A stretch of 42,099 nucleotides of DNA from Caldifarciminota bacterium (GTDB lineage Bacteria; Hydrothermota; Tepidihabitantia; SM23-42). Below the pieces are notes generated by a model, which saw only the letters and a program-made list of their open reading frames with translations, was not told the DNA's origin and did no database searches. A program made the position numbers and the translations under genes. The DNA is taken from positions 1 to 42,099 of the forward strand of contig JACUUY010000007.1 of NCBI GenBank assembly GCA_014859085.1, written 5' to 3'. Positions 9,585-22,136 of the stretch are shown here, one piece after another. The stretch's first letter is position 1. The number at the start of each line of letters is the position of its first letter.

Positions 9585-10823
9585 CTATTCGGTTGTGCTG
9601 AGAAACGGCGACCAGGCCGGCGCATTCGCCGTGATGCCGCTGGTCAGTTTGCGCAGTCTTGACCCGTCCCAGTTCATAGTGTAGAGCTCATACTGGCCAG
9701 TCCGGTTCGATGTGAAGACGATGTGCAAACCGTCTGGTGACCACGACGGCTCTTCATTGTTGCCCAGGTAGGTGAGCCGCAGCGGGCTGAAATCGGTCGG
9801 ATCCGTGACGTATATCTGCTGCGAGTTGTCTTTCTCCCGCGACACGTAGGCAATGATGTCGCCGCGCGGCGACCAGCAAGGCGAAGTGTTGTAATTGCCG
9901 TGAAATGTCAGACGCCGCACGTTGCCGCCGTGCGTGTCCATGACATAGATTTGCGGGTTACCCGAACGGTCCGAGACAAAGGCTATCTCGCGGCTGTTGG
10001 GCGAGAAGGTCGGTGACGTGTCGATCGCCGAGTTGTAGGTCAGCCGGTGCAGCTCGCCGGTGGTGAGGTCGAGGAGATACAACTCGGGATTGCCGTCCTT
10101 GGACAGGCTCATGCATATCTTTGTTCCGTCCGGCGACCAGCAGGGCGCGAAGTTCAGGCCTTTGAACGAAGAGAGCGCCTTGGTCTCGCGGGTTGACAGA
10201 TCCTTGAGATAGATCTTCAAGCGGTCGTCAGTATAGGATGAGAACAGGATACGCGTGCCTTCAGGCGACCAGGCAGGGAAGAGGTTTAAATTATTGTTGC
10301 TCGTGATCGACGCGAAGTTGTAACCGTCGTAGTCGATCATGCCGATCTCCTTGCCAGCTGCGGTCCGGTAGGAGAAAACGATCCGGGTCGAGGCAATGCC
10401 CTTTTCGCCGGTCAGAATGTTGATCACTTCATCCGCGATGGTGTGCGCGGTCCTCCGTGCATCTTCTCTCACCTCATAGCTTCGTTCTGAAATCCTCTCG
10501 CGGCTGTCATAGTCTTCCAGGCGCACAGAGATTTTTTCATTCGCCGCGACCGCCTTGAGGATCACGCTCTCGGTGCCGGTTGCCAGATATGCGGTGTCGG
10601 TGAGGACATCGAAATAGAGGGAGTATTCCAGGTCGTTCTTCAGAACATCCTCGATCACCGCGACCCGGCGTCCGAACTCGCTCCCGGGCGCAGTGGACTG
10701 GAGCACGAAAGGTTCAACGACGAGCCGTATTTTGCCGCCGCCGTAATCGGTGAGCCGCAGATAGACGTCCTGCGCCTGCATCCAGCATGCGGCGGCGAGC
10801 ATGATAGCGGCCAGTCGTCTCAT
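9585..10823 (-). CDS. tolB: Tol-Pal system beta-propeller protein TolB
   Basis: A 412-residue periplasmic protein with a signal peptide (MRRLAAIMLAAACWMQAQ). Residues 20-150 form the TolB N-terminal domain, and about 160-412 form a six-bladed propeller with repeating WSPDGT/WSPEGT units (AWSPEGTRILFSS, CWSPDGTKICMS, TFSPNSREIAFVS, CWSPRGDIIAYVS, SWSPDGLHIVFTS). TolB links Pal to the inner-membrane TolQRA motor. It is the last gene of the pal-tol operon, and its ATG overlaps the tolA stop (ATGA). The following 108 bp hold the divergent-free spacer and the cupin promoter. I see no clear terminator. Confidence 0.93.
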   Translation of the reverse strand: MRRLAAIMLAAACWMQAQDVYLRLTDYGGGKIRLVVEPFVLQSTAPGSEFGRRVAVIEDVLKNDLEYSLYFDVLTDTAYLATGTESVILKAVAANEKISVRLEDYDSRERISERSYEVREDARRTAHTIADEVINILTGEKGIASTRIVFSYRTAAGKEIGMIDYDGYNFASITSNNNLNLFPAWSPEGTRILFSSYTDDRLKIYLKDLSTRETKALSSFKGLNFAPCWSPDGTKICMSLSKDGNPELYLLDLTTGELHRLTYNSAIDTSPTFSPNSREIAFVSDRSGNPQIYVMDTHGGNVRRLTFHGNYNTSPCWSPRGDIIAYVSREKDNSQQIYVTDPTDFSPLRLTYLGNNEEPSWSPDGLHIVFTSNRTGQYELYTMNWDGSRLRKLTSGITANAPAWSPFLSTTE

Positions 10824-11440
10824 CTTGCGGTCAGGAATTCCAGGTGGACTTTCAAATAATCGTCGACGAACTCATCGGGCAGGGGCGGTAGCGATCTCGT
10901 GACAATCACGGCGCGCATCGCGGTTTCGTTGTAGATCTCGTTGCCCGAGGTCTCTTCGAGCCGCACGCCGTATATGTTGCCGTCCTTGTCGACCTCAAAA
11001 TAGATTACGCTTTTGAGTATGACATCCTGGTCGCGAAACGGATTATGCCAGTTCTTGCTGATCCGGTTGAGCAGGATGTTCAGGTAGTACGAGTAAGTGA
11101 AGCCGCGGCCGCTGCCCGTGTAGACCTTCGGCTTTATGTCGGGCAGGCCGGTCTTGACCACTTCTACGGCTTTTTTCTCGACCGGTTTCTTGGCCGGTTC
11201 TACTTTTTTTTCTTCCTTCTTGGGCGGGACTTTCTCTTCTAACTTTTCTTCGGGTATGATCTCGTGTATTTCTTCGGCCGGTTGTTCAGGGCTGATCACC
11301 CTGGGTTGGGGCAGGGGAGCAAGGCTGACCCTGTAGACCTCCAGGTTCGGCATTGGCTGTAGATGGGCGCGGCCCGATATGAATATGGCGGACAAGACCA
11401 CGCCGTGCAGCACAACAGACATAATGTGGAAGCGGTTCAT
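10820..11440 (-). CDS. tolA: TolA/TonB-family energy transducer
   Basis: A 206-residue protein with one N-terminal membrane anchor (about residues 5-22), then a Pro/Glu/Lys-rich periplasm-spanning segment (about 45-110, with KKEEKKVEPAKKPVEKK), then a TonB/TolA C-terminal domain (about 115-206; KNWHNPFRDQDVILKSVIYF, then YGVRLEETSGNEIYNETAMRAV). It lies between tolR and tolB, with 4-nt ATGA overlaps on both sides, so it acts as TolA even though the C-terminal domain is generic TonB-type. The spacer is much shorter than E. coli TolA, which has about 420 residues in total. Confidence 0.88.
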   Translation of the reverse strand: MNRFHIMSVVLHGVVLSAIFISGRAHLQPMPNLEVYRVSLAPLPQPRVISPEQPAEEIHEIIPEEKLEEKVPPKKEEKKVEPAKKPVEKKAVEVVKTGLPDIKPKVYTGSGRGFTYSYYLNILLNRISKNWHNPFRDQDVILKSVIYFEVDKDGNIYGVRLEETSGNEIYNETAMRAVIVTRSLPPLPDEFVDDYLKVHLEFLTAR

Positions 11441-11832
11441 CCCTGCGGTATTTCAGCCACCAGCCCCAGTTCTTTGACACCCGCCTTGCGCATCCGGCCC
11501 ACGATCTCCACGACGAAGCCGTAGTCGACCTCTTTGTCCGCGCGTAGGTAGATGATGATGTTGGGCGGTTTACTGCTCAGGATCTGACGGATCCTCGTCT
11601 CAAAGTCGTCGATGGCGACCCGGTCATTATCGACGAATATCTCCTTTTCCTTGTTTATCGAAACCGTCACGCCCTCTTCATCGTGGGGCAGGGAAGCATC
11701 AGTGCGGGGCAGGTTGACATCTATGCCCGGTGTCATCATCGGCGCGGTGATGATGAATATGACGAGCAGCGTGATGCTGACGTCGGCCAGCGATGTCATA
11801 TTGATCTCGGAAATCAACCCCTTGTTGTTCAT
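11437..11832 (-). CDS. tolR: ExbD/TolR family biopolymer transport protein
   Basis: A 131-residue protein with a single N-terminal membrane helix. It contains the essential proton-channel Asp at D17 (MTSLADVSITLLVIFIIT) and then the periplasmic domain (TPGIDVNLPRTDA; ADKEVDYGFVVEIVGRMRKAG). TolR pairs with TolQ to form the proton-driven motor. Its start overlaps the tolQ stop (ATGA), and its stop overlaps the tolA start. The length is typical for the family. Confidence 0.93.
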   Translation of the reverse strand: MNNKGLISEINMTSLADVSITLLVIFIITAPMMTPGIDVNLPRTDASLPHDEEGVTVSINKEKEIFVDNDRVAIDDFETRIRQILSSKPPNIIIYLRADKEVDYGFVVEIVGRMRKAGVKELGLVAEIPQG

Positions 11833-12533
11833 TGGGACAGAGTGAGCAACTCCTTGCGGAGGTTGGCATAGATTTCGCTGATGAATTTGTCGAGTTCGTT
11901 GCTGAAATTATTGGTGCGGCTTCTGAATATATTGTAGAAGATCAGCGCCGGGATCGCGACGAGCAGCCCGTACACCGTCGTGATCAGGGCGTCAGAAATG
12001 CCGGGCGCGACGATCGTGATGTGCGCCGAGCCGCGGGCGCGGATCTCCAGGAACGCCAGCATGATGCCCCATACGGTTCCCAGCAGTCCCAGGAACGGGC
12101 TCACGCTGACGAACGTGCTCAAGGCCGGCAGGGAAGCCTCCAGGCGCGCGATCTCGTCGGTCTTCGTTCGCTCCATGGCCAGGCGGACGTTGTCGCTGAG
12201 TTCATTGATGAAGGTGTGTTCTTTCGGCGTTTCCTTTTGATGCATAAGATGCGCGCTGACCCGCACTTTCAGCCGCTTGAACTCTTCGAGCCCGCTGGCG
12301 AGAATGCGGCCGCAGGGGTTATCGGTGAGCTGAATGCCGAAGTTACCCCATTCTTTCATTTCCTTGTGGAAGGCGTAATTCGCCATAAACCGGTTGGTGC
12401 TCCGCCTGACCTTGCCGAAATCGAAGAGTTTCTTGAGGAAGATCCCCCAGGACCATATCGAAAAAATAACGAGAATGACCATTATGGTCTGAGCCGCCGT
12501 GCTCGACTCAATGAAGATCCTGAATATGTTCAT
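11829..12533 (-). CDS. tolQ: MotA/TolQ/ExbB proton channel protein
   Basis: A 234-residue inner-membrane protein with three hydrophobic helices (about 13-33, 135-160 and 175-200) and a cytoplasmic loop between the first two. Signature segments are LPALSTFVSVSPFLGLLGTVWGIMLAF and GISDALITTVYGLLVAIPALIFYN. With TolR it forms the proton channel that energises TolA. It begins 2 nt after the cpoB stop, with the MNIFRIFIESS start. Length and topology are standard. Confidence 0.93.
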   Translation of the reverse strand: MNIFRIFIESSTAAQTIMVILVIFSIWSWGIFLKKLFDFGKVRRSTNRFMANYAFHKEMKEWGNFGIQLTDNPCGRILASGLEEFKRLKVRVSAHLMHQKETPKEHTFINELSDNVRLAMERTKTDEIARLEASLPALSTFVSVSPFLGLLGTVWGIMLAFLEIRARGSAHITIVAPGISDALITTVYGLLVAIPALIFYNIFRSRTNNFSNELDKFISEIYANLRKELLTLSQ

Positions 12534-12535
12534 TA

Positions 12536-13246
12536 TTATTCTAGTTTATCCCGGGCCAGAGCCGCTTCCGGTGAATTGGGGAAGTCTTTAATCACCTGAT
12601 TGTAATAGAAGCGCGCGGTCTTGGTGTCCTTGCCCTGCTCGTAGATGAGCCCCATGCGGTAGAGCGCGGTCGGCACGCGCGTGCTCTTCGGATATTTGCC
12701 CAGCAATTCCTGGAACGCATCGACCGCTTTCTGCAACTGGCCGAGCGCGGCGTATGATTCACCGATCCAGTAAAGAGCATTATCGACGAGCGGGCCGTCC
12801 GCGGCCGCTTTCTGGTATGCCCGGAATCCGTCGATCGCCTCCTGGTAATCGCCCTTCACGTAGTTCTTGTAGGCGGATTCGTACAGGACGCGGCTTTCCG
12901 GGCTGACCTGCGCGATGGCTTCGGAATCGGCGACCGCCCGTTGAGCCGGGCCGATCTTGCTGTAGAGCTGGCTGATCTGCGTTTCCGATTCGCCCAGCCG
13001 GTCATTGAGCATGTCGAATTTCCGGCTCAGTTCATTGGTCTTTGTATAGAGATCGGTGCGCAGCTGTGCGATCTCGACGGTCTGCGCAACGATCAGGCTG
13101 TCCATCTTCCTGGTGTAGTATCTCAGGCTGTCGAGCTGCCAGCCGTAGTTGTTGAAACGCTGGCGGCTTAAGCAACTCGTGCTGGTAGTAGCTACCAGCA
13201 CGAGCAATAGTAAAGGTAGAGAAACGCGCGGCATTCTCATCCGCAT
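12536..13246 (-). CDS. cpoB: Tol-Pal coordinator CpoB/YbgF, TPR protein
   Basis: The track extends this ORF to 13513, through the pal gene in another frame. The real start is one of three closely spaced ATGs (13246, 13240, 13234), and I take the first, giving 236 residues. A hydrophobic signal (SLPLLLLVLVATTSTS) runs to C25, a possible but atypical lipobox because the -3 residue is Ser. Residues 30-105 form a coiled coil (heptads around LRTDLYTKTNELSRKFDMLN), and the C-terminal 115 residues carry about three TPRs (YKNYVKGDYQEAIDGFRAYQ, ALGQLQKAVDAFQELL, then EQGKDTKTARFYYNQV). In E. coli CpoB coordinates Tol with peptidoglycan synthesis. It starts 28 nt after the pal stop with no clear ribosome site. 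Confidence 0.85.
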   Translation of the reverse strand: MRMRMPRVSLPLLLLVLVATTSTSCLSRQRFNNYGWQLDSLRYYTRKMDSLIVAQTVEIAQLRTDLYTKTNELSRKFDMLNDRLGESETQISQLYSKIGPAQRAVADSEAIAQVSPESRVLYESAYKNYVKGDYQEAIDGFRAYQKAAADGPLVDNALYWIGESYAALGQLQKAVDAFQELLGKYPKSTRVPTALYRMGLIYEQGKDTKTARFYYNQVIKDFPNSPEAALARDKLE

Positions 13247-13274
13247 TAGTGGAGACCGTGCTTCGTGTCCGCTA

Positions 13275-13733
13275 TTATCTCCTGAATTCACACCTGCGGT
13301 TCTGTTCGAGCACTTTCGGGTCAAGCGGTCTCTCTTCACCGTAACTGACCGTGGAAAGCCGTGCTGAAGACACGCCGAGCATGACCAGATAGTCGTGCGC
13401 CGCTTTGGCGCGCCGCTCGCCCAGTGCAAGATTGTATTCGGCGGTGCCGATCTCGCAGCAATGGCCTTCGATCGTGATATTGGCTTCCGGGTAGAGTTGA
13501 AGCATCTGCGCATTCTTCTTCAACGCTTCGGCCGCATCGGCGCGGATGTCGGATTTGTCAAAGTCGAAGAAAATGCGCTGCATCTCGAACGGCGGCCGGG
13601 TCGGCTCCTCAACTATTATCTCAGGGGGAGCTTCTTCGACTTCTTCGACAGGCTGTACCACTTGTTTCTTCGGGCACCCCATCACCATCAGCAAAGCAAT
13701 GATTATTGGTAAGCCCAGCTTCACGTAGCGCAT
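13275..13733 (-). CDS. pal: Peptidoglycan-associated lipoprotein Pal
   Basis: A 152-residue outer-membrane lipoprotein. It has signal peptide MRYVKLGLPIIIALLMVMGC with the lipid-modified Cys at 20, then a Pro/Glu-rich linker, then an OmpA-C domain (about 48-152; IFFDFDKSDIRADAAEALKK, EGHCCEIGTAEYNLALGERR, YGEERPLDP) that binds diaminopimelate in peptidoglycan. The C-terminus is short, and the usual NRRVEF motif reads NRRCEFRR. AGGAGG lies 4 nt before the ATG, and a consensus promoter lies upstream. Pal is first in this operon, whereas E. coli places it after tolB. Confidence 0.93.
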   Translation of the reverse strand: MRYVKLGLPIIIALLMVMGCPKKQVVQPVEEVEEAPPEIIVEEPTRPPFEMQRIFFDFDKSDIRADAAEALKKNAQMLQLYPEANITIEGHCCEIGTAEYNLALGERRAKAAHDYLVMLGVSSARLSTVSYGEERPLDPKVLEQNRRCEFRR

Positions 13734-13766: not shown

Positions 13767-13794
13767 ATTATAACTAAGATAAGCATATTGTCAA
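13767..13794 (-). promoter_or_regulatory. Consensus promoter of the pal-tol operon
   Basis: Minus strand TTGACA (13794-13789), 16-bp spacer, TATAAT (13772-13767), both perfect hexamers. Transcription should start near 13760, giving a leader of about 27 nt that includes the AGGAGG ribosome site of pal. The rest of the 13734-13901 spacer has a GGACCG/CGGTCC inverted repeat (13831-13836 and 13860-13865) with no T-run. Confidence 0.8.
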
Positions 13795-13901: not shown

Positions 13902-16900
13902 TCAGAACGAGCCGGTTATCTTCGCCGACATCAGATGGGTTGTCGACGCGCGGATCAGCATGTTCGCTTCGTAGTCGATCTGCAGGTACAGGAATGCGAG
14001 CATATTCAGATATACGCTGCAGCCCGGGATGAGCGAGTTGCTGATGCCGCTCGTGGATTTCTCCTGCCGCCGTGCGGCGAGGCCGACATTCACGTACGAC
14101 CGGCGGCCGAACCTCATAAGGGTTTCCGCGCGGATGCTCGCTTCCGAATCCCCGGTCTGAACCGTCGCGTAATCATTTCTGGCAACCCGCAGATTCCCGC
14201 TCAGTTTAGTCCGCAGCGCAGCCGACCACGGTTTTGTCCACTCCAGATACGTGTTTGTTGTGGTCTGCACGGGATAGAGCCGGCTCTCGGTCCGGCTGAA
14301 GACGGCGGCCAGCAGGCCGACCCGTGCCAGCTCGTACTCGGCTCTTATTTCATCCGCGTACGTTATCCGGAGAACGGGCGCGGCAAAACGTCCGCTGCCG
14401 CTGTTGTTGACCGTACGTTTGAGCTGCAGGCTGAGATTGGCGAATGGCAGGAGGAATATCTTGGCGTAGGTGCTGTGCAGGTCGGTGAGCGTTGCGATGT
14501 TGTCCTCAACCGGGTTCAGGACGAGAAGGGGCAGCGTGCGGTCCCGCGCCAGGTCATCGAGATACTCGTCAAAATTGCGGCCGCGGCCAAACGACAGATT
14601 GACGACGCTGAGCGGCGCGTACCAGCGTCCGGGCGCGATATTCAGGTTGTTCAGCAAATACGTGCGGACCGACATGTCTTTTGATGGAGCAAGGAAGAAT
14701 GTCTCACGCTTGTGCTGGTAATTGCCGGTGTAACTAAGTCCGGGCACTGCATCGAAATTGAGCGCAAGGCGGACCTCGTTCTCGTCCTTTTCCCGGTCGT
14801 CTTCGCGGCTGCGGCGGATACCGTGCGCGTAGAGATCGATGGATACCGGCAGGCGCAGCGCCGCATTGGCCGTGACCGTGTAGTCGAAGACGCGCTTGCG
14901 GTCTTCGCCGCCGAAATCGAAGAGATCATCGCGCATTGACGATGCGAGCCGGATCCTGTTGCCGGAGAGCTGGAGCGCGTAGTTCGCGTTGCCCTGGATA
15001 CGGAAATTCTCGTGGTCCGGCAGTACATTCCGCGCAATGAGCAGCGAGCCGTTCGGCCACGCCGGGTTCAGGTATGCGATCATCCCGGATATATGATCGG
15101 TCCGGTTCGGCTCGTTCAGGGAATCGACGAGCGACTCCCGGCGCAGGCTCGCTTTCAAACGCACATGATCGAGCGGCTCGATGCCCAACGATACCGCGCC
15201 GCTATGCTCGATGCGGCCGTATGGCCGCTCGTTCAGGCCGAAGGCTTCAAAGCCGTCTGACCAACCGCGGTAGTTCGCGTTCAGGGTGAGCGCCCGGTAG
15301 TTGGCAACGAGCAGATGATCCTGTGCATGATCCTTATCGTCGTTGACCGCGATCTGAGGCACGAGCATTATCGAGTTATCGGCCGGGCCGCTCTGATATT
15401 TGCCGGAGAGATGGAAGATGTTCTCACCGGCAACTGCGCTGTAGCCGGGCGCTATATTGATCCTTTCGCCGATCTCGAGGTTCGGCTGGACCGAATAGAA
15501 GGGGTCGGTGCGTGTCTTCTCGATCGAGATGTACTGCACTTCGACTTCGCTGAAATCGGAGACCACGCTCTCGCTCAGGAACAGAACGATGCCCGATGTG
15601 TAGTCGATGCTGTAGTGGTCGTTGCGGGCCATCAGCGCGCCGTCCACGAAGACTTTTTCACTGCCGATCATTACCGGCCTGGCGCTGAGCGAATAGAAGA
15701 CCGACTGGGTAAAGAAGCGGTAATCCATCGTGTACGCATGAAGCTGCTGTTCGTATACCGCGTCCGGGAAGGGCCGTCCATCGGGAAAGGTCAGGTAGCC
15801 AAGGCGGTAATTGACGAATTCCGGGTCGACGAGCCCGTCATCGTCGTTGTCGATCCCGAAATCGCCCAGAGAATGGGCCGTGCCCAGGGTATCGAGGATG
15901 CAGAGCTCCAGCGACCCGGGTACAATGTTGGGCCCGAGCGCGTATATGTTGACGAGCAGGTTATCGCGCACGAGATCGGACTGGATGACGAATTCCTGCC
16001 CGTTGATCCACAGGACGATGATGTCGTCATCGCCGGCCGGGTTGAGAAGCGCTATGATGCCCCTATCGTGGTCGATATAGTAACCGATACCGTTGACCAG
16101 CGGGTCAAAATCTCCGGTGATCCCGGCGACCGTGAACCCGATCCGCGTATCGATCTCGTTCGTTTCGGCCATGCGGTCGTCAATGAATACCGTGTCCGAG
16201 CCGTTACGGTCGACCAGATAGATTCCCGGTATTTTGTAGAACGCGTTCTTCGCGTAGTCGATATCCATCACCGTGTTCTCCTGCTCGAACGAACGGCCGT
16301 AGAAGAAATCGTTCTGGTGGCTCGATTTCAGCTGCCCGGCCTGGAGCATGACGCTCTGGCCGCGGTGGCGCAGTCTTGCGTTCGCGCCGAATGTCGAGAA
16401 TGCGGGCACGAGTTTGAATTCGTAGTACTCGGATTCGATGAAACCGCCGTTGGCGCGGTAGAGAAAGTCAGGCTCGAGGCCGCGGTAGCCGAAGCCGTAC
16501 AGGGTATCTTCTTTGTTCGTGTCATCATAGTAGGCCGCCAGCGTCCGGGCGCTCGCGTGCTGGCCAAGCAGCCGGAGGTTTAGCGTCGAGTAATCCCGCC
16601 AGTAAACGCTGTCCGTCACGACGCTCGATACGGAGTAGTACGTCCTACCCTGCAGCTTCAGGTCGAGGTCAGGCATCGCGCCGAAGTGCAGGCCCGCCTC
16701 GTCGTAGCGCAGGATCCTCGTGCCCAATGCACTGACCGGTTCCAGCTCCTCGACCTGCCAGATACGCGTGTTTTTATTATAGTACTGTATCGCATCATGC
16801 CCGATCGCCAGGATATGGTTCGCGGCTTCATAAGCATCGATTATCGTATCGTTGAACATGCCGCTGGCGCGGTTGTGGATAACACGCGTCTTCTCGGTCC

Positions 16901-17741
16901 AGTCGTAGAGCGCCAAACCCTGGTCCGTGGCGAAGGCGATGCAGTTTGAAATTCTTGAACTGACCGATATCCCGCTGATCGTGCCCAGCCCCCCGGCTTC
17001 AACGAACGCGCCCCAGCGGTTGGTCGCCGGATTGTACAGATAGACCCGGCCGCCGCTGACCACGAAGAGCGAATCGTCCACGTTTGCGTAGTCATCGACC
17101 GGGAGCGCCGCGTGTTCGGCCCACGATCCGGTATTTCTTTCGTAGGCGACGAACCCGTCGTCGGCCAGGAACCAGATCCTCGATTTCGTGTTGATTATGT
17201 GGTAAAAGCCGTGCTTTGACGCTGCTTGCATTTCCTCGATGCGCGCGAATTCATGGTCGTACCGGCGGATGGACTGGTGGGCAGCGATCCAGAGATAGTT
17301 CTGATCATGAAGGATGTCCTGCGCCGGCATTCCGTCGACCGTTTCCCATGTCTCCGTAAACTTGTCAAATCTATGCAGGCCTGAATCACCGGCGACCCAT
17401 ACATATTGGTCGTCGAAGGCGAGGCCGTTGACCCGGCCGGGGATCTCGTACGCCCGCCAGTCTGCGAGCCGGATGTCGGCCGATGCCAGACCGCTCCCGG
17501 TTGCGGCCCAGAGAATACCCTGATCGATCCCCAGAACGTGGACCTCATTATCAGGCAGGCCGTGGGCGGTCGTGATACTCTTCCAGGTCGTCGCATTGCG
17601 GTCAAAGGTATAGATCCCGGACTCCGTCGTCACAAAAATGTATTCGGACGCGTAGCGCAGGTCCATGCCGTCGAGTATCACCGGATTGCGCGCGATCTGC
17701 TTCTGTGAGAAGCCGAAAAAGAAGAGTAAGAGCGGGATCAA
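13902..17741 (-). CDS. Regulator-type propeller fused to outer-membrane beta-barrel protein
   Basis: The track starts at 17789, inside the upstream gene. I place the start at TTG 17741, which overlaps the previous TGA as TTGA and gives a sensible signal peptide (MIPLLLFFFGFSQKQ); 1279 residues. Residues about 20-370 form a beta-propeller of two-component-regulator type (TTAHGLPDNEVHVLGIDQG, ILWAATGSGLA and WVAGDSGLHRFD). Residues about 400-770 are beta-rich, with SprA-like modules such as VFVDGALMARNDHYSIDYTSG and the partly matching IGYYIDHDRGIIALL. A DNDDDG acidic loop may bind Ca2+. The remainder has the alternating pattern of an outer-membrane barrel and ends in a terminal Phe (KITGSF), the usual BAM signal. 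It is the last gene of the DUF362/polyferredoxin operon. Function unknown; transport or surface anchoring is a guess. Confidence 0.7.
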   Translation of the reverse strand: MIPLLLFFFGFSQKQIARNPVILDGMDLRYASEYIFVTTESGIYTFDRNATTWKSITTAHGLPDNEVHVLGIDQGILWAATGSGLASADIRLADWRAYEIPGRVNGLAFDDQYVWVAGDSGLHRFDKFTETWETVDGMPAQDILHDQNYLWIAAHQSIRRYDHEFARIEEMQAASKHGFYHIINTKSRIWFLADDGFVAYERNTGSWAEHAALPVDDYANVDDSLFVVSGGRVYLYNPATNRWGAFVEAGGLGTISGISVSSRISNCIAFATDQGLALYDWTEKTRVIHNRASGMFNDTIIDAYEAANHILAIGHDAIQYYNKNTRIWQVEELEPVSALGTRILRYDEAGLHFGAMPDLDLKLQGRTYYSVSSVVTDSVYWRDYSTLNLRLLGQHASARTLAAYYDDTNKEDTLYGFGYRGLEPDFLYRANGGFIESEYYEFKLVPAFSTFGANARLRHRGQSVMLQAGQLKSSHQNDFFYGRSFEQENTVMDIDYAKNAFYKIPGIYLVDRNGSDTVFIDDRMAETNEIDTRIGFTVAGITGDFDPLVNGIGYYIDHDRGIIALLNPAGDDDIIVLWINGQEFVIQSDLVRDNLLVNIYALGPNIVPGSLELCILDTLGTAHSLGDFGIDNDDDGLVDPEFVNYRLGYLTFPDGRPFPDAVYEQQLHAYTMDYRFFTQSVFYSLSARPVMIGSEKVFVDGALMARNDHYSIDYTSGIVLFLSESVVSDFSEVEVQYISIEKTRTDPFYSVQPNLEIGERINIAPGYSAVAGENIFHLSGKYQSGPADNSIMLVPQIAVNDDKDHAQDHLLVANYRALTLNANYRGWSDGFEAFGLNERPYGRIEHSGAVSLGIEPLDHVRLKASLRRESLVDSLNEPNRTDHISGMIAYLNPAWPNGSLLIARNVLPDHENFRIQGNANYALQLSGNRIRLASSMRDDLFDFGGEDRKRVFDYTVTANAALRLPVSIDLYAHGIRRSREDDREKDENEVRLALNFDAVPGLSYTGNYQHKRETFFLAPSKDMSVRTYLLNNLNIAPGRWYAPLSVVNLSFGRGRNFDEYLDDLARDRTLPLLVLNPVEDNIATLTDLHSTYAKIFLLPFANLSLQLKRTVNNSGSGRFAAPVLRITYADEIRAEYELARVGLLAAVFSRTESRLYPVQTTTNTYLEWTKPWSAALRTKLSGNLRVARNDYATVQTGDSEASIRAETLMRFGRRSYVNVGLAARRQEKSTSGISNSLIPGCSVYLNMLAFLYLQIDYEANMLIRASTTHLMSAKITGSF

Positions 17742-19249
17742 TTGTCGGTGATGAATCCGGCGGGAAGATCTTCTTCTTTCTCCTCGCACGCGCGCCGCCG
17801 GATCTTTTCTTCAGTGATGTAAGGATCGTAGCGCATACGTTCCTCGCCGATGGAGAAGATCTCGATCGCGGCGCGGCCTTCGATCGGGCAGCGCGCTTCG
17901 CACAGACCACAACCCGTGCAGATCTGTTCGTCGATGAAAGGTCTGAGCAGCGTCGTGCCGCGGATCGTTTCGCTGAGCGAACTGATGGCGCCGTAGGGAC
18001 ACGCCTCGTCACAGATCAGACAAACGCGGTCCTGCTCCCAGGCAATGCACCGCGTACGGTCGATGACCGCCGTGCCCATCTTGGCGTAGGTCTTTTCCTC
18101 CGGATCCAGCTTCCGGATCGCGCCGGTCGGGCACACCTGGCCGCACATGCTGCAGTTCTTTTCGCAGCCGCCGATCCGGGCAGCGAGCCGCGGCGTCCAC
18201 AGGCCGCCAATGCCCGCTTCCAGGACACATGGCTGCAAGCCGTTGGTGGGGCAGACCTTCATGCACTTGCCGCAATGGATGCAGGCGTTGAGAAAATCAC
18301 GTTCGGGGATCGACCCTGGGGGCCGGATGAGCCGGTCCGAGAGTCTCTGGTGGAGCAGTGTCCGGGCAAGCGGGGCGCAGATGATGGACGTTCCCAGCGC
18401 GCCGATCAAGTGCCGGCGGCTCAGGTCCATGGTTGACGGAGACGGAGCGGGGGCGAGCCGGTACCGGAACACGGCCGGCGGGCATTCGTATACACACCGC
18501 AGGCAATCTATGCATTCTGCGGCGTCGATCCGCGCATGCTCGACGGAGATCGCGCCGGTCGGACAGATGTTCTCGCATACGCCGCACCCGGTGCAGCCGG
18601 CGCCGAAGGAAAACTTGAAGACCGCGAACTTCGAACACAATGCGAGCAGCCCGCCGAGCGGGCACAGATTGCGGCACCAGAACCGCTCGCTGAACAGACT
18701 GAGGCCGAGGATGGTCGCGAGTACCAGGAGCGCGAGCGCCGATTCCGTGTAGACCTGCGGTGATCCGAGATGGACAAAGCCGGCGAGGAAGGTGGCGACC
18801 GGATAGAAGATGAGGGTCAGGGAACGCTCGAGGATGACGAGCGGCTCGAAGAGATGGAGGAACGAGACGGACAGCACGGCCGCCGCGACGAGGAATATCA
18901 ATATGAAGTACTTGACGGGGCGCAGTCCGGATGCGTGCGTGCGCTTTCTCCTGACGAACGAATCCGCGATGTCGATGGTTGTGCCCAGGGGGCAGATGAA
19001 CCCGCAGAAGAAACGGCCAAAGACGAGCGTTGCCGCGATCACGAAAAGAGCCAGGAGAAAAGCGCTGGCGACCGCGCGCAGGGCAATACTGACGATGAGC
19101 AGGATGAGCGGGTCGAACCTGAAGAACAGATTCTGGAACGTGACCGGTAGCGGGTAGCGGGTCTCGATGAATGCCAGGACGAACAGGCCGAGAAAGAGCA
19201 GCTGGATCACCCAGCGGATGGTGCGTACTTTCGTGCCGCTCACCTTCAC
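17738..19249 (-). CDS. NapH/NapG-like membrane polyferredoxin fusion
   Basis: A 503-residue iron-sulfur protein. Residues 1-210 are a NapH/PsrB-type membrane part with about five helices and two CxxxCP motifs (FCGFICPLG, WCRNLCPLG). A ferredoxin pair follows (CTGCGVCENICP, CIDCLRCVYECPP). At 277-286 a twin-arginine-like SRRHLIGALG plus a hydrophobic stretch restarts a NapG/MauM-like module with further clusters (CIHCGKCMKVCP, CSMCGQVCP, CLICDEACP, CTGCGLCEARCP), making up to six [4Fe-4S] sites. NapH and NapG are normally separate proteins, so this looks like a fusion. Expected role: electron transfer from quinol toward the periplasm. It starts at GTG 19249, 26 nt after the DUF362 stop. No nap reductase gene is nearby, so the electron acceptor is unknown. 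Confidence 0.82.
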   Translation of the reverse strand: MKVSGTKVRTIRWVIQLLFLGLFVLAFIETRYPLPVTFQNLFFRFDPLILLIVSIALRAVASAFLLALFVIAATLVFGRFFCGFICPLGTTIDIADSFVRRKRTHASGLRPVKYFILIFLVAAAVLSVSFLHLFEPLVILERSLTLIFYPVATFLAGFVHLGSPQVYTESALALLVLATILGLSLFSERFWCRNLCPLGGLLALCSKFAVFKFSFGAGCTGCGVCENICPTGAISVEHARIDAAECIDCLRCVYECPPAVFRYRLAPAPSPSTMDLSRRHLIGALGTSIICAPLARTLLHQRLSDRLIRPPGSIPERDFLNACIHCGKCMKVCPTNGLQPCVLEAGIGGLWTPRLAARIGGCEKNCSMCGQVCPTGAIRKLDPEEKTYAKMGTAVIDRTRCIAWEQDRVCLICDEACPYGAISSLSETIRGTTLLRPFIDEQICTGCGLCEARCPIEGRAAIEIFSIGEERMRYDPYITEEKIRRRACEEKEEDLPAGFITDN

Positions 19250-19275: not shown

Positions 19276-20199
19276 TCAGACCTTACTTTCCCTGATCTGC
19301 ATCTTCGCGGGATCGATCTCGCCCAGGCCGAGTCCGGCCGCGGCCCGGATATGCTTAACCTGGTTCCCGGTCCAGGCCTTGCCGTACCACGGGGCGAGCC
19401 CCACCGTGTAGGAATCGACGGCCACCGGATCGGTTCCCGCGACGACCTTGTCGAGGATCAGTGTTTTGCCCGGTCCGCCCGGTCCGCCCGTGGTCAGGGC
19501 GCGCGTCGCGTCGATCAGGGTCAGCCCGGGTTTGATCACGGTCCCCAGTTCGGCGATCGCCTGATCCAGCGCCACGCGGTGGAGATAGCCGCGGTCCCAG
19601 ATCAATCCCATGAGAGCCTTGAGGCCAAGGCTCACGCCGGTCGCCGAGTGCGACTTCGCGACGGGCATGTTGACCAAGAGGTCGGCGTCCTGGATCGCCT
19701 TGGCGATCTTGATCTTGCTCAATTCCGTGTCCGTGCCGCGCGGGACGTCGATCTCGGCGTACTGGCGTTCCTGCTGCAGGGTTACGAGCGAGACCTTCCG
19801 GTCAATGATCGCCTCTTTGATACCACTCCGCTCGACGCAGAGTTCGGCCTGGTGGATCGTGTGATCCATGACGATGACCCTCGAGGCGCCGGCCTCCAGG
19901 CACAGCTCGACCATCTGTTTCACGACCAGGGGATTCGTGGTCGTGCCGCAGTCGTTGTTCGAAGAGAACGAAAGATTGGGCTTGATGCAGATGACGCCGC
20001 CCGGTTTGATGAACTTATCGATGCCGCCGACGAGGTCGACCGCGGCCCGGACGAGTTTCGAATTGTCGCCCCCGGCAACGCCGATGAGCGGACCCGAACC
20101 CGCGGGCCGGTCGGCGCGCATCAACGACTTGGGCAGCAGCGCGGCGAGCGCGGCACCGGCGCCTATCTTGACGAACTCGCGGCGTGTTATCTTTTCCAT
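19276..20199 (-). CDS. Tat-signal DUF362 protein (second copy)
   Basis: The track starts 16 codons too early. ATG 20199 lies 1 nt after the upstream TAG and begins a classic Tat signal (MEKITRREFVKIGAGAALAA), giving 307 residues. The mature part matches DUF362: VICIKPNLSFSSNN near the start, GASRVIVMDHT, LLVNMPVAKSHSATGVSLGL and GTDPVAVDSY near the end, then a GLG-x5 tail. Members are often linked to iron-sulfur or corrinoid metabolism, but the biochemical role is not established. Here the Tat signal implies a folded, possibly cofactor-loaded periplasmic protein. It is followed by the polyferredoxin gene, which may be its redox partner. Confidence 0.83.
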   Translation of the reverse strand: MEKITRREFVKIGAGAALAALLPKSLMRADRPAGSGPLIGVAGGDNSKLVRAAVDLVGGIDKFIKPGGVICIKPNLSFSSNNDCGTTTNPLVVKQMVELCLEAGASRVIVMDHTIHQAELCVERSGIKEAIIDRKVSLVTLQQERQYAEIDVPRGTDTELSKIKIAKAIQDADLLVNMPVAKSHSATGVSLGLKALMGLIWDRGYLHRVALDQAIAELGTVIKPGLTLIDATRALTTGGPGGPGKTLILDKVVAGTDPVAVDSYTVGLAPWYGKAWTGNQVKHIRAAAGLGLGEIDPAKMQIRESKV

Positions 20200-20200
20200 G

Positions 20201-20764
20201 CTACTGTTCCGGATCCGCGGTCGTTCGTTGTATGGCCTCGGAGACATTCAATGCGAATAATTTTGCGATATTCTGCGCTTCGGTCGTTGCGTCGTTGATC
20301 GTGATGTCAACGTAGAACCGGCCGTGCCAGAATTCGATGAGATAGTATCCCACGAGGATTTCACAGCGCGCTTCGATCCCGGCATGGCCGGTCTCGGTCC
20401 ACGGTATCTCGCTGCCGGTTTCGAGGCGGCTGTCATGGTAGACCGCGCAGGCATTGATCGTGTCGCCCATGTCAAATGCCCTCACATCGACCGTCCTCGG
20501 CGTGCCCTGAACCTCACCGCCAAACTCCTGGAACGCGCACTTGACAAAGCCATGGTCAACGAAGACCACGCCCTCGCCATCGATCAGATCCCAGAGCTGC
20601 GTTTCGTTCTCGGCGATCTCCATATCGCCGGTCCTCGACCAGCCGCTGATCTCATTGTCAACCGGGATCAGGTCAACGACATCGACGAGTCCCGGTCCTG
20701 TTCCGCTCTCGGTGCAGCAGAGAAAGATACATGCCAGGAAAAGAAATATGATCGGTTTCCTCAT
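20201..20764 (-). CDS. DUF6599-like lipoprotein
   Basis: A 187-residue exported protein. The signal peptide MRKPIIFLFLACIFLCC ends in a lipobox-like LCC. The segment LWDLIDGEGVVFVDHGF, followed by a beta-rich pattern with QEFGGEVQGTPRTVDVRAFD, resembles DUF6599 proteins, from memory only. A second hydrophobic beta segment (YYLIEFWHGRFYVDITIND) is near the C-terminus. It starts 8 nt after the stop of the upstream DUF362 gene and ends 1 nt before the next one, firmly inside the operon. It probably sits in the periplasm or on the outer membrane. No catalytic motif is recognised. Confidence 0.65.
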   Translation of the reverse strand: MRKPIIFLFLACIFLCCTESGTGPGLVDVVDLIPVDNEISGWSRTGDMEIAENETQLWDLIDGEGVVFVDHGFVKCAFQEFGGEVQGTPRTVDVRAFDMGDTINACAVYHDSRLETGSEIPWTETGHAGIEARCEILVGYYLIEFWHGRFYVDITINDATTEAQNIAKLFALNVSEAIQRTTADPEQ

Positions 20765-20772
20765 TATGCCTC

Positions 20773-22089
20773 CTAACGTAGAATCGTGATTTTCTTCATT
20801 GTGCTGCGGCCGTTGTTCATGATCCGGATGAAATAACTGCCGGCGGTCAATTCTTTCTTTATCATATACTCGATTCGGTGGGTTCCGGCCGCCAAGGTTC
20901 CGTTGAAAATGATGTCCTGCGTGCGGCCGGCAGCATCGATCAGGTCAATGCGGATCGTTGACAATGCAGCCGGGGAATAAATTATGGCCGTTCTGGTGCG
21001 GAACGGATTCGGCGTGACCTGTGCCGGACCGCCCGGCGAATCCGCTTCATTGAAGCCGCCGATCCCGGAAGGGTTACTGATCTCAATGAGGTTGACGTCG
21101 GTCGTGCCGAGGTTGTAGGGAGCGGCCGCGGCGGTCAGGATGTGCGGCGCCGAGATCGTTGCATACCCCAGCCTGACGCGCTCTTCGTTTATCAGCACCT
21201 GGCCCTGCCAGTCGCAGGCGACCGTGTCGAGACTCATCAGGAGCTTGTTGGTGATACAGTTGGGCGGCCCGCTCGGCCCCCAATTGACCTTGGCAAAGAG
21301 CCCGTCGACGATGAATATCTTCTGGATGTTATTGGGCGTGACCACGTCGCGTATCTGCTGATTGACGGCCGGGATGTGCGGGTTGCACGTGTAGTTGGTG
21401 CTGTGCAGGGATCCTGGATTGTGCACTGAGCCGTAGTGGTTCTTCATGGTCAGCGTCACCTGCGCGCCGTTGTGGTCTTTCATGACCGCGGTATTGACGA
21501 GAAAATCCGCCATCTGCGTCAATATCCGGCTCGGATAGCTGGTCACGCCGTAGACGTTGAAGGGCAGGGTGTAATCATACCCAACACCGGAATGGTTCGT
21601 ACCGAAACAGCGTGCCGTATCCGGGTTGCTGCCGTCGTAGATCGTATAGCCGGCCTCGACGAGTTCCAGGTCGGTGCGGTCCCAGACGATTACGTTATTT
21701 TTCGGGAAGTGCACGCTGCCGAACTGCATCTGTCCAAGGCCGTTGATGATGCAGTCCACGAACTCTGGATGGGCCGGTAGATATTCATTTATGGCGTTTA
21801 TCTTGATCCCGATGATACTGTTCTCGATGATGCCCGGAAAGACCGATTTCCATGCCTCGCCCACGTCATTGATCCCGGTCAGCTGTTTTATCGAAGCGTC
21901 CATCATGATTTGAACGACCGGTTCGTTGATCGAGCTGCCGCTCGTCGCGTTCTCATCAAAGCACTGTACTACATCGCTGGCGCGCCCGAGGCTCCGTGTT
22001 TGCGCGCCGAACAGGTCCGGCTTGAGCATCAGACCGAGGGCGCCGGCGCCGCAACATCTTATAAAATCGCGCCTCGATATTCCTTTCAT
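20773..22089 (-). CDS. Tat-signal DUF362 protein with T9SS-type C-terminal tail
   Basis: The track starts at 22161, but the upstream residues are not signal-like, and a consensus promoter overlaps them. ATG 22089 gives a Tat signal (MKGISRRDFIRCCGAGALGL); 438 residues. Residues about 60-330 are DUF362-like (IGIKINAINEYLP, FLVNTAVMKDHNGAQVTLTM, LMSLDTVACDWQG). The last 80 or so residues are a Por/T9SS type A sorting-like domain (TPNPFRTRTAIIYS, LIDAAGR, GTLAAGTHRIEYMI, LTAGSYFIRIMNNG, KKITILR). Combining Tat export with such a tail is unusual, and suggests export across both membranes after cytoplasmic folding. It is the first gene of the five-gene operon. The substrate or cofactor is unknown. 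Confidence 0.8.
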   Translation of the reverse strand: MKGISRRDFIRCCGAGALGLMLKPDLFGAQTRSLGRASDVVQCFDENATSGSSINEPVVQIMMDASIKQLTGINDVGEAWKSVFPGIIENSIIGIKINAINEYLPAHPEFVDCIINGLGQMQFGSVHFPKNNVIVWDRTDLELVEAGYTIYDGSNPDTARCFGTNHSGVGYDYTLPFNVYGVTSYPSRILTQMADFLVNTAVMKDHNGAQVTLTMKNHYGSVHNPGSLHSTNYTCNPHIPAVNQQIRDVVTPNNIQKIFIVDGLFAKVNWGPSGPPNCITNKLLMSLDTVACDWQGQVLINEERVRLGYATISAPHILTAAAAPYNLGTTDVNLIEISNPSGIGGFNEADSPGGPAQVTPNPFRTRTAIIYSPAALSTIRIDLIDAAGRTQDIIFNGTLAAGTHRIEYMIKKELTAGSYFIRIMNNGRSTMKKITILR

Positions 22090-22108: not shown

Positions 22109-22136
22109 ATTCTACCCGGAAACCCTTCTGTGTCAA
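22109..22136 (-). promoter_or_regulatory. Promoter of the DUF362/polyferredoxin operon
   Basis: Minus strand TTGACA (22136-22131), 16-bp spacer, TAGAAT (22114-22109). The predicted start near 22102 leaves a leader of about 13 nt before the ATG at 22089, with only a weak TGGGG ribosome site. It lies back to back with the plus-strand promoter at 22175-22203, 38 bp between the two -35 boxes, so the two genes could share a regulator. Confidence 0.7.

Follow-up and report, generated by a model that had tools for sequence, protein, structure and literature searches.

A probable propeller-barrel outer-membrane protein with SprA-like parts, encoded with a polyferredoxin and DUF362 proteins in candidate phylum WOR-3

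What is the role of a large protein that appears to join a sensor-type β-propeller to parts of SprA from the type IX secretion system (T9SS) and to an outer-membrane barrel? The question is raised by a gene in the window, as we call the 42,099-nucleotide stretch of contig JACUUY010000007.1 analyzed here, which belongs to a candidate phylum WOR-3 genome. The product, termed the propeller-barrel (PB) protein, is a probable outer-membrane protein comprising an eight-bladed propeller, SprA-like parts and a probable barrel. Its nearest named relatives (CP070686.1 and CP070802.1) show 64% identity for PB. The gene and all other window features described below lie on the minus strand. The reading frame is open from 13902 to 17789, i.e. 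beyond the chosen start. We placed the start at the TTG at 17741–17739, because this codon is conserved in the ortholog alignment and forms a TTGA overlap with the stop codon of the preceding gene. The resulting, ortholog-supported coding sequence (13902..17741; 1279 residues plus stop) agrees exactly with the coordinates given in an earlier note on this DNA. It begins with a short hydrophobic export signal, MIPLLLFFFGFSQKQIA (17691..17741), which is weak by sequence and has no positive n-region; one Myxococcota-type ortholog carries a clear Sec signal.

Full-length PB orthologs are found throughout WOR-3 and mostly end in Phe. An alignment of 18 full-length sequences has a mean column identity of 59% and a nearly invariant C-terminal Phe, and contains no invariant Cys. 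A mobile or viral origin was rejected, as no relatives of PB were found among viral contigs or plasmids.

The N-terminal third of PB (residues 18–345; 16707..17690) is predicted at good confidence to adopt a Reg_prop/PorZ-type β-propeller fold. With the window sequence alone, a Pfam search gave no propeller match and a PDB sequence search nothing useful. Among the 18 orthologs, nine match PorZ_N_b_propeller (best 8.7e-6) and seven match Reg_prop; the Myxococcota-type ortholog L035 passes the Reg_prop cut-off (22.5 bits vs 20.4). The PB family profile matches the hybrid two-component sensor BT4663 (PDB 4a2l) at 2.5e-11. An AlphaFold model of residues 18–350, based on five sequences, contains 32 strands with a pLDDT of 80 and a pTM of 0.79, and Foldseek placed BT4663 first by E-value and PorZ 18th. 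The best superpositions among the matches listed are with eight-bladed designs (TM about 0.65), and the modeled blade count is probably closest to eight. The Reg_prop-like blades claimed in the earlier note are thus borne out by the Pfam matches of the orthologs, the BT4663 profile match, the model and the fold search. Its description of the propeller as “displayed” is open to doubt, as domains N-terminal to barrels of the outer membrane usually lie in the periplasm. Since the propeller is located ahead of the barrel in the chain, it probably faces the periplasm and, by this analogy, is more likely to lie beneath the outer membrane than on it. Separate Reg_prop/PorZ-like proteins of 720–740 residues with T9SS-type C-terminal ends are also encoded in WOR-3 (L043, L045, L048 and L049).

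The propeller is followed by a linker and the first barrel-like strands (residues 346–505; 16227..16706), where strand alternation is not significant and the alignment contains an invariant His in each of the motifs YDEAGLH and GQH. The next segment, SprA-like module A (residues 506–665; 15747..16226), was identified by hhalign to WOR-3 SprA and includes a calcium-loop-like sequence, FGIDNDDDGLVD, at residue 628; this module was not detected in Myxococcota-type orthologs. Module B (GSEKVFVDG...DYSIDYTSG; residues 669–742; 15516..15737), identified by both TIGR04189 and hhalign, is common to the Myxococcota-type orthologs as well. TIGR04189 matches PB of the window with an E-value of 5e-6 and 24 bits, below the curated cut-off of 200 bits, and matches 12 of the 18 orthologs (best 6.5e-11). 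By hhalign, residues 409–724, spanning the calcium-loop-like sequence and module B, are collinear with WOR-3 SprA over 315 columns (99.2%, E 1e-19). This region corresponds to the N-terminal third only of F. johnsoniae SprA.

PB is not the SprA of its own genome, as a separate SprA is encoded elsewhere. The search of 61 genomes gave a SprA match in every one, over the curated cut-off in 55 (including the window's own genome), and T9SS-tailed cargo is likewise present in these 61 WOR-3-class genomes; we therefore regard PB as a family separate from SprA. The same 61 genomes (G000–G060; e.g. L038 and L040) contain large sets of T9SS-tailed proteins beside their SprA matches; several T9SS papers call the system Bacteroidota-specific. 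A further, widespread family of Phe-terminated barrel proteins of 900–1070 residues contains SprA module B and no propeller (L036:5685-8405; similar ORFs in L041, L044 and L046). Module B is the sole part that the 907-residue barrel family of the window genome has in common with the SprA-like stretch of PB.

The C-terminal half of PB (residues 746–1279; 13905..15506) is a predicted outer-membrane β-barrel, an assignment that is supported by sequence but not proven. Hydrophobicity alternation over residues 746–1268 gives z=4.0, compared to 5.4 for the C-terminal barrel region of SprA, 5.2 for the 907-residue family, and about zero or below for controls (PorZ-like propellers, TolB, IMPDH and DUF362). 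AlphaFold modeling of residues 340–1279 from a three-sequence alignment reached a pLDDT of 25. The barrel profile has no match in the Myxococcota-type PB proteins, whose barrel half we judge to be homologous to that of WOR-3 by position only. Domain profile scans detected no kinase or response-regulator domain in the chain. The remaining architecture proposed earlier, namely SprA-like modules and a barrel-like, Phe-terminated C-terminus with no kinase, is consistent with these results: the modules with the TIGR04189 and collinear hhalign matches, the C-terminus with the alternation and the nearly invariant Phe, and the missing kinase with the scans.

PB is the last gene of a five-gene operon with short intergenic spacing and its own promoter-like site. 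The operon starts with a DUF362 protein that carries both a Tat signal (MKGISRRDF) and a T9SS type A C-terminal domain (20773..22080; profile and motif). It continues with a DUF6599 lipoprotein (20201..20764; profile and lipobox), a second DUF362 protein with a Tat signal (19276..20199; start at MEKITRREF, profile and signal motif), and a NapH-NapG fused polyferredoxin of the dual Sec-Tat type (17738..19249; profile matches), which overlaps translationally with PB. The promoter-like site (11/12; 22109..22136) lies just upstream of the operon; the motif scan found 13 such sites vs 5.8 +/- 2.7 expected. In orthologs of the tailed DUF362 protein with an intact N-terminus (L050–L063 and L095–L099), the Tat signal and the T9SS tail are both kept; known T9SS cargo is described as Sec-exported (PMC12618676).

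The five-gene block is retained at nearly all informative WOR-3 loci, including those of other classes of the phylum. PB is present in 28 of 147 WOR-3 genomes. Of these 28, 27 also have the tailed DUF362, which is absent from all 119 others (16/16 vs 0/63 at genus level); these counts are phylogenetically non-independent, and the single PB genome without the tailed DUF362 reflects a contig edge. Two genomes (G010 and G012) retain both PB and the DUF362 of the block although the two genes are not linked there. The polyferredoxin is found in 33 of the 147 genomes, 27 of them with PB. As four close genomes (G014, G023, G024 and G025) keep it without PB, it can serve other partners. The operon partnership of PB with the redox-block genes is well supported.

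As judged from sequence comparison, the gene set is conserved in two distant bacterial phyla. It recurs on two records labelled Myxococcales and Deltaproteobacteria, and PB is present in 12 of 193 genomes of that Myxococcota-type class. At all ten Myxococcota-type loci examined, PB lies alongside DUF362 genes and DUF6599; the polyferredoxin is present at nine, and the tenth ends at a contig end. Furthermore, a DUF6599 domain is located within the PB protein itself, after module B, in all ten (domain E 5e-24 to 9e-11), and this fusion links the PB and DUF6599 families; no such domain was found inside WOR-3 PB proteins. In place of the T9SS tail, the Myxococcota-type counterpart of the tailed DUF362 mostly has a lipobox together with a Tat motif, and the ten PB genomes searched contain no SprA above the cut-off.

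In our preferred reading, which we consider about evenly balanced, a quinol-linked polyferredoxin and DUF362 proteins form a conserved envelope system together with PB, which supplies its outer-membrane component. The polyferredoxin family consists of dual Sec-Tat membrane proteins with periplasmic FeS clusters, in which NapH and NapG are fused, and NapH and NapG together constitute a quinol dehydrogenase (PMC5449189). From this fusion we infer electron transfer from quinol to the periplasm, with DUF362 as the user and PB as the outer-membrane part. The fusion would draw electrons from the quinone pool and offer them in the periplasm, where the Tat-exported DUF362 proteins would spend them on a substrate in that compartment or at the surface. 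PB would reside in the outer membrane. Its eight-bladed propeller, probably periplasmic, would serve as the platform on which the DUF6599 and DUF362 partners dock, and the barrel with the SprA-like modules would act as a gate or anchor where substrate or partner meets the outside. We likewise infer the barrel topology, the side of the propeller, the electron flow and the identity of any passing species. To our knowledge, DUF362 has no known chemistry, and we found no solved structural relative. Its membership of the same Pfam clan as the lactate racemase-type DUF2088 (PMC11770544) suggests, without demonstrating, that it is a cofactor-bearing enzyme. PB is no obvious candidate for an electron wire, since it has no invariant Cys and its four neighbouring WOR-3 block proteins contain no CxxCH motif. 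Of the receptor or translocon envisaged in the earlier note, a private translocon is possible. The strongest evidence, however, which the note overlooked, is the conserved operon: its NapH-NapG polyferredoxin, DUF6599 lipoprotein and pair of DUF362 proteins point to an envelope redox or enzyme system and not to a signal receptor.

It is conceivable, but unlikely, that PB serves the tailed DUF362 alone, as its private translocon or surface receptor; PB would then be a SprA paralog, reduced in length, dedicated to moving or anchoring one cargo. The SprA homology and the nearly complete co-occurrence (27/28) with a T9SS-tailed protein would fit such a role, but these genomes already encode a SprA for general use along with numerous T9SS cargos, and the Myxococcota-type genomes keep the pair without a SprA above the cut-off and with a cognate DUF362 that resembles a Tat lipoprotein. 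Still less probable is a stand-alone, SprA-related receptor or adhesin in the outer membrane, with a propeller that binds glycans as in BT4663 and an operon position of little meaning. The closeness of the propeller to this heparin sensor and the second SprA-module barrel family (907 residues) in the window genome speak for it; the gene set kept in two phyla, the co-retention of unlinked genes and the DUF6599 fusion speak against it. We regard as more doubtful again a cytochrome-free trans-envelope redox system in which electrons would pass from quinol through the NapHG polyferredoxin to DUF362 proteins (in WOR-3, one of these would be exported by Tat and then taken to the surface by T9SS), with PB as a dedicated outer-membrane gate. 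Propellers of the Reg_prop type are typically found in hybrid two-component sensors, but a sensor that has lost its kinase and signals via another route is very improbable: the C-terminus is barrel-like, and scans of the chain and of adjacent genes revealed neither a kinase nor a regulator domain. Hardly credible at all is an accessory role in the Tol-Pal system, whose complete operon (pal, cpoB, tolQ, tolR, a tolA-like gene and tolB; 9585..13733) lies directly downstream of PB on the same strand within the genus only: outside the genus the adjacency is lost while the redox block remains, and a 12/12 promoter-like site between PB and pal (13767..13794) makes tol-pal probably a separate transcription unit, so that the role is rejected, synteny having largely refuted it already.

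SprA is a 36-strand barrel with a lateral opening, and PorZ is a T9SS surface protein. PB resembles SprA/Sov (TIGR04189; PDB 6h3i) in its collinearity with the N-terminal third, in module B, in the calcium-loop-like segment and in its barrel-like C-terminus. It differs in its score (24 bits vs the 200-bit cut-off), its length (1279 vs about 1850 residues for WOR-3 SprA) and its N-terminal propeller, and it stands beside a separate true SprA in WOR-3 and without a SprA above the cut-off in Myxococcota-type genomes. PorZ (PDB 5m11; NF052228, PF21544) has the propeller superfamily in common with PB, but PB combines one propeller with SprA-like modules and a barrel and has no T9SS C-terminal domain; the equivalog NF052228 scores 15.1 bits against PB, under its cut-off of 260. 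BT4663-type sensors provide the top profile and fold match of the propeller, whereas PB has one propeller domain and no kinase or regulator domain. Porin-cytochrome conduits (MtrCAB) combine a barrel with periplasmic redox partners, as proposed here for the PB system; in contrast, the four neighbouring PB-block proteins are free of CxxCH, so there is no multiheme cytochrome partner among them. The gene adjacent to PB is a fusion of the Sec-Tat polyferredoxin/NapGH quinol dehydrogenase type (PMC5449189), but is partnered in the window with DUF362, DUF6599 and PB instead of nitrate reductase.

We found no paper on DUF6599 in the literature searched, and DUF362 papers mention no such operon in their titles and the beginnings of their abstracts. 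The parts of PB each resemble known ones; as far as we have searched, the domain combination with its conserved gene set, and hence the system, is undescribed. The set joins four families of little-known or unassigned role, DUF362, DUF6599, the Sec-Tat polyferredoxin and the SprA-related PB, in WOR-3 and Myxococcota-type bacteria. Gene deletions in a cultivable myxobacterium would allow its function to be tested, provided that one carrying the set exists. PB would represent a SprA-like outer-membrane part put to use outside the type IX secretion system.
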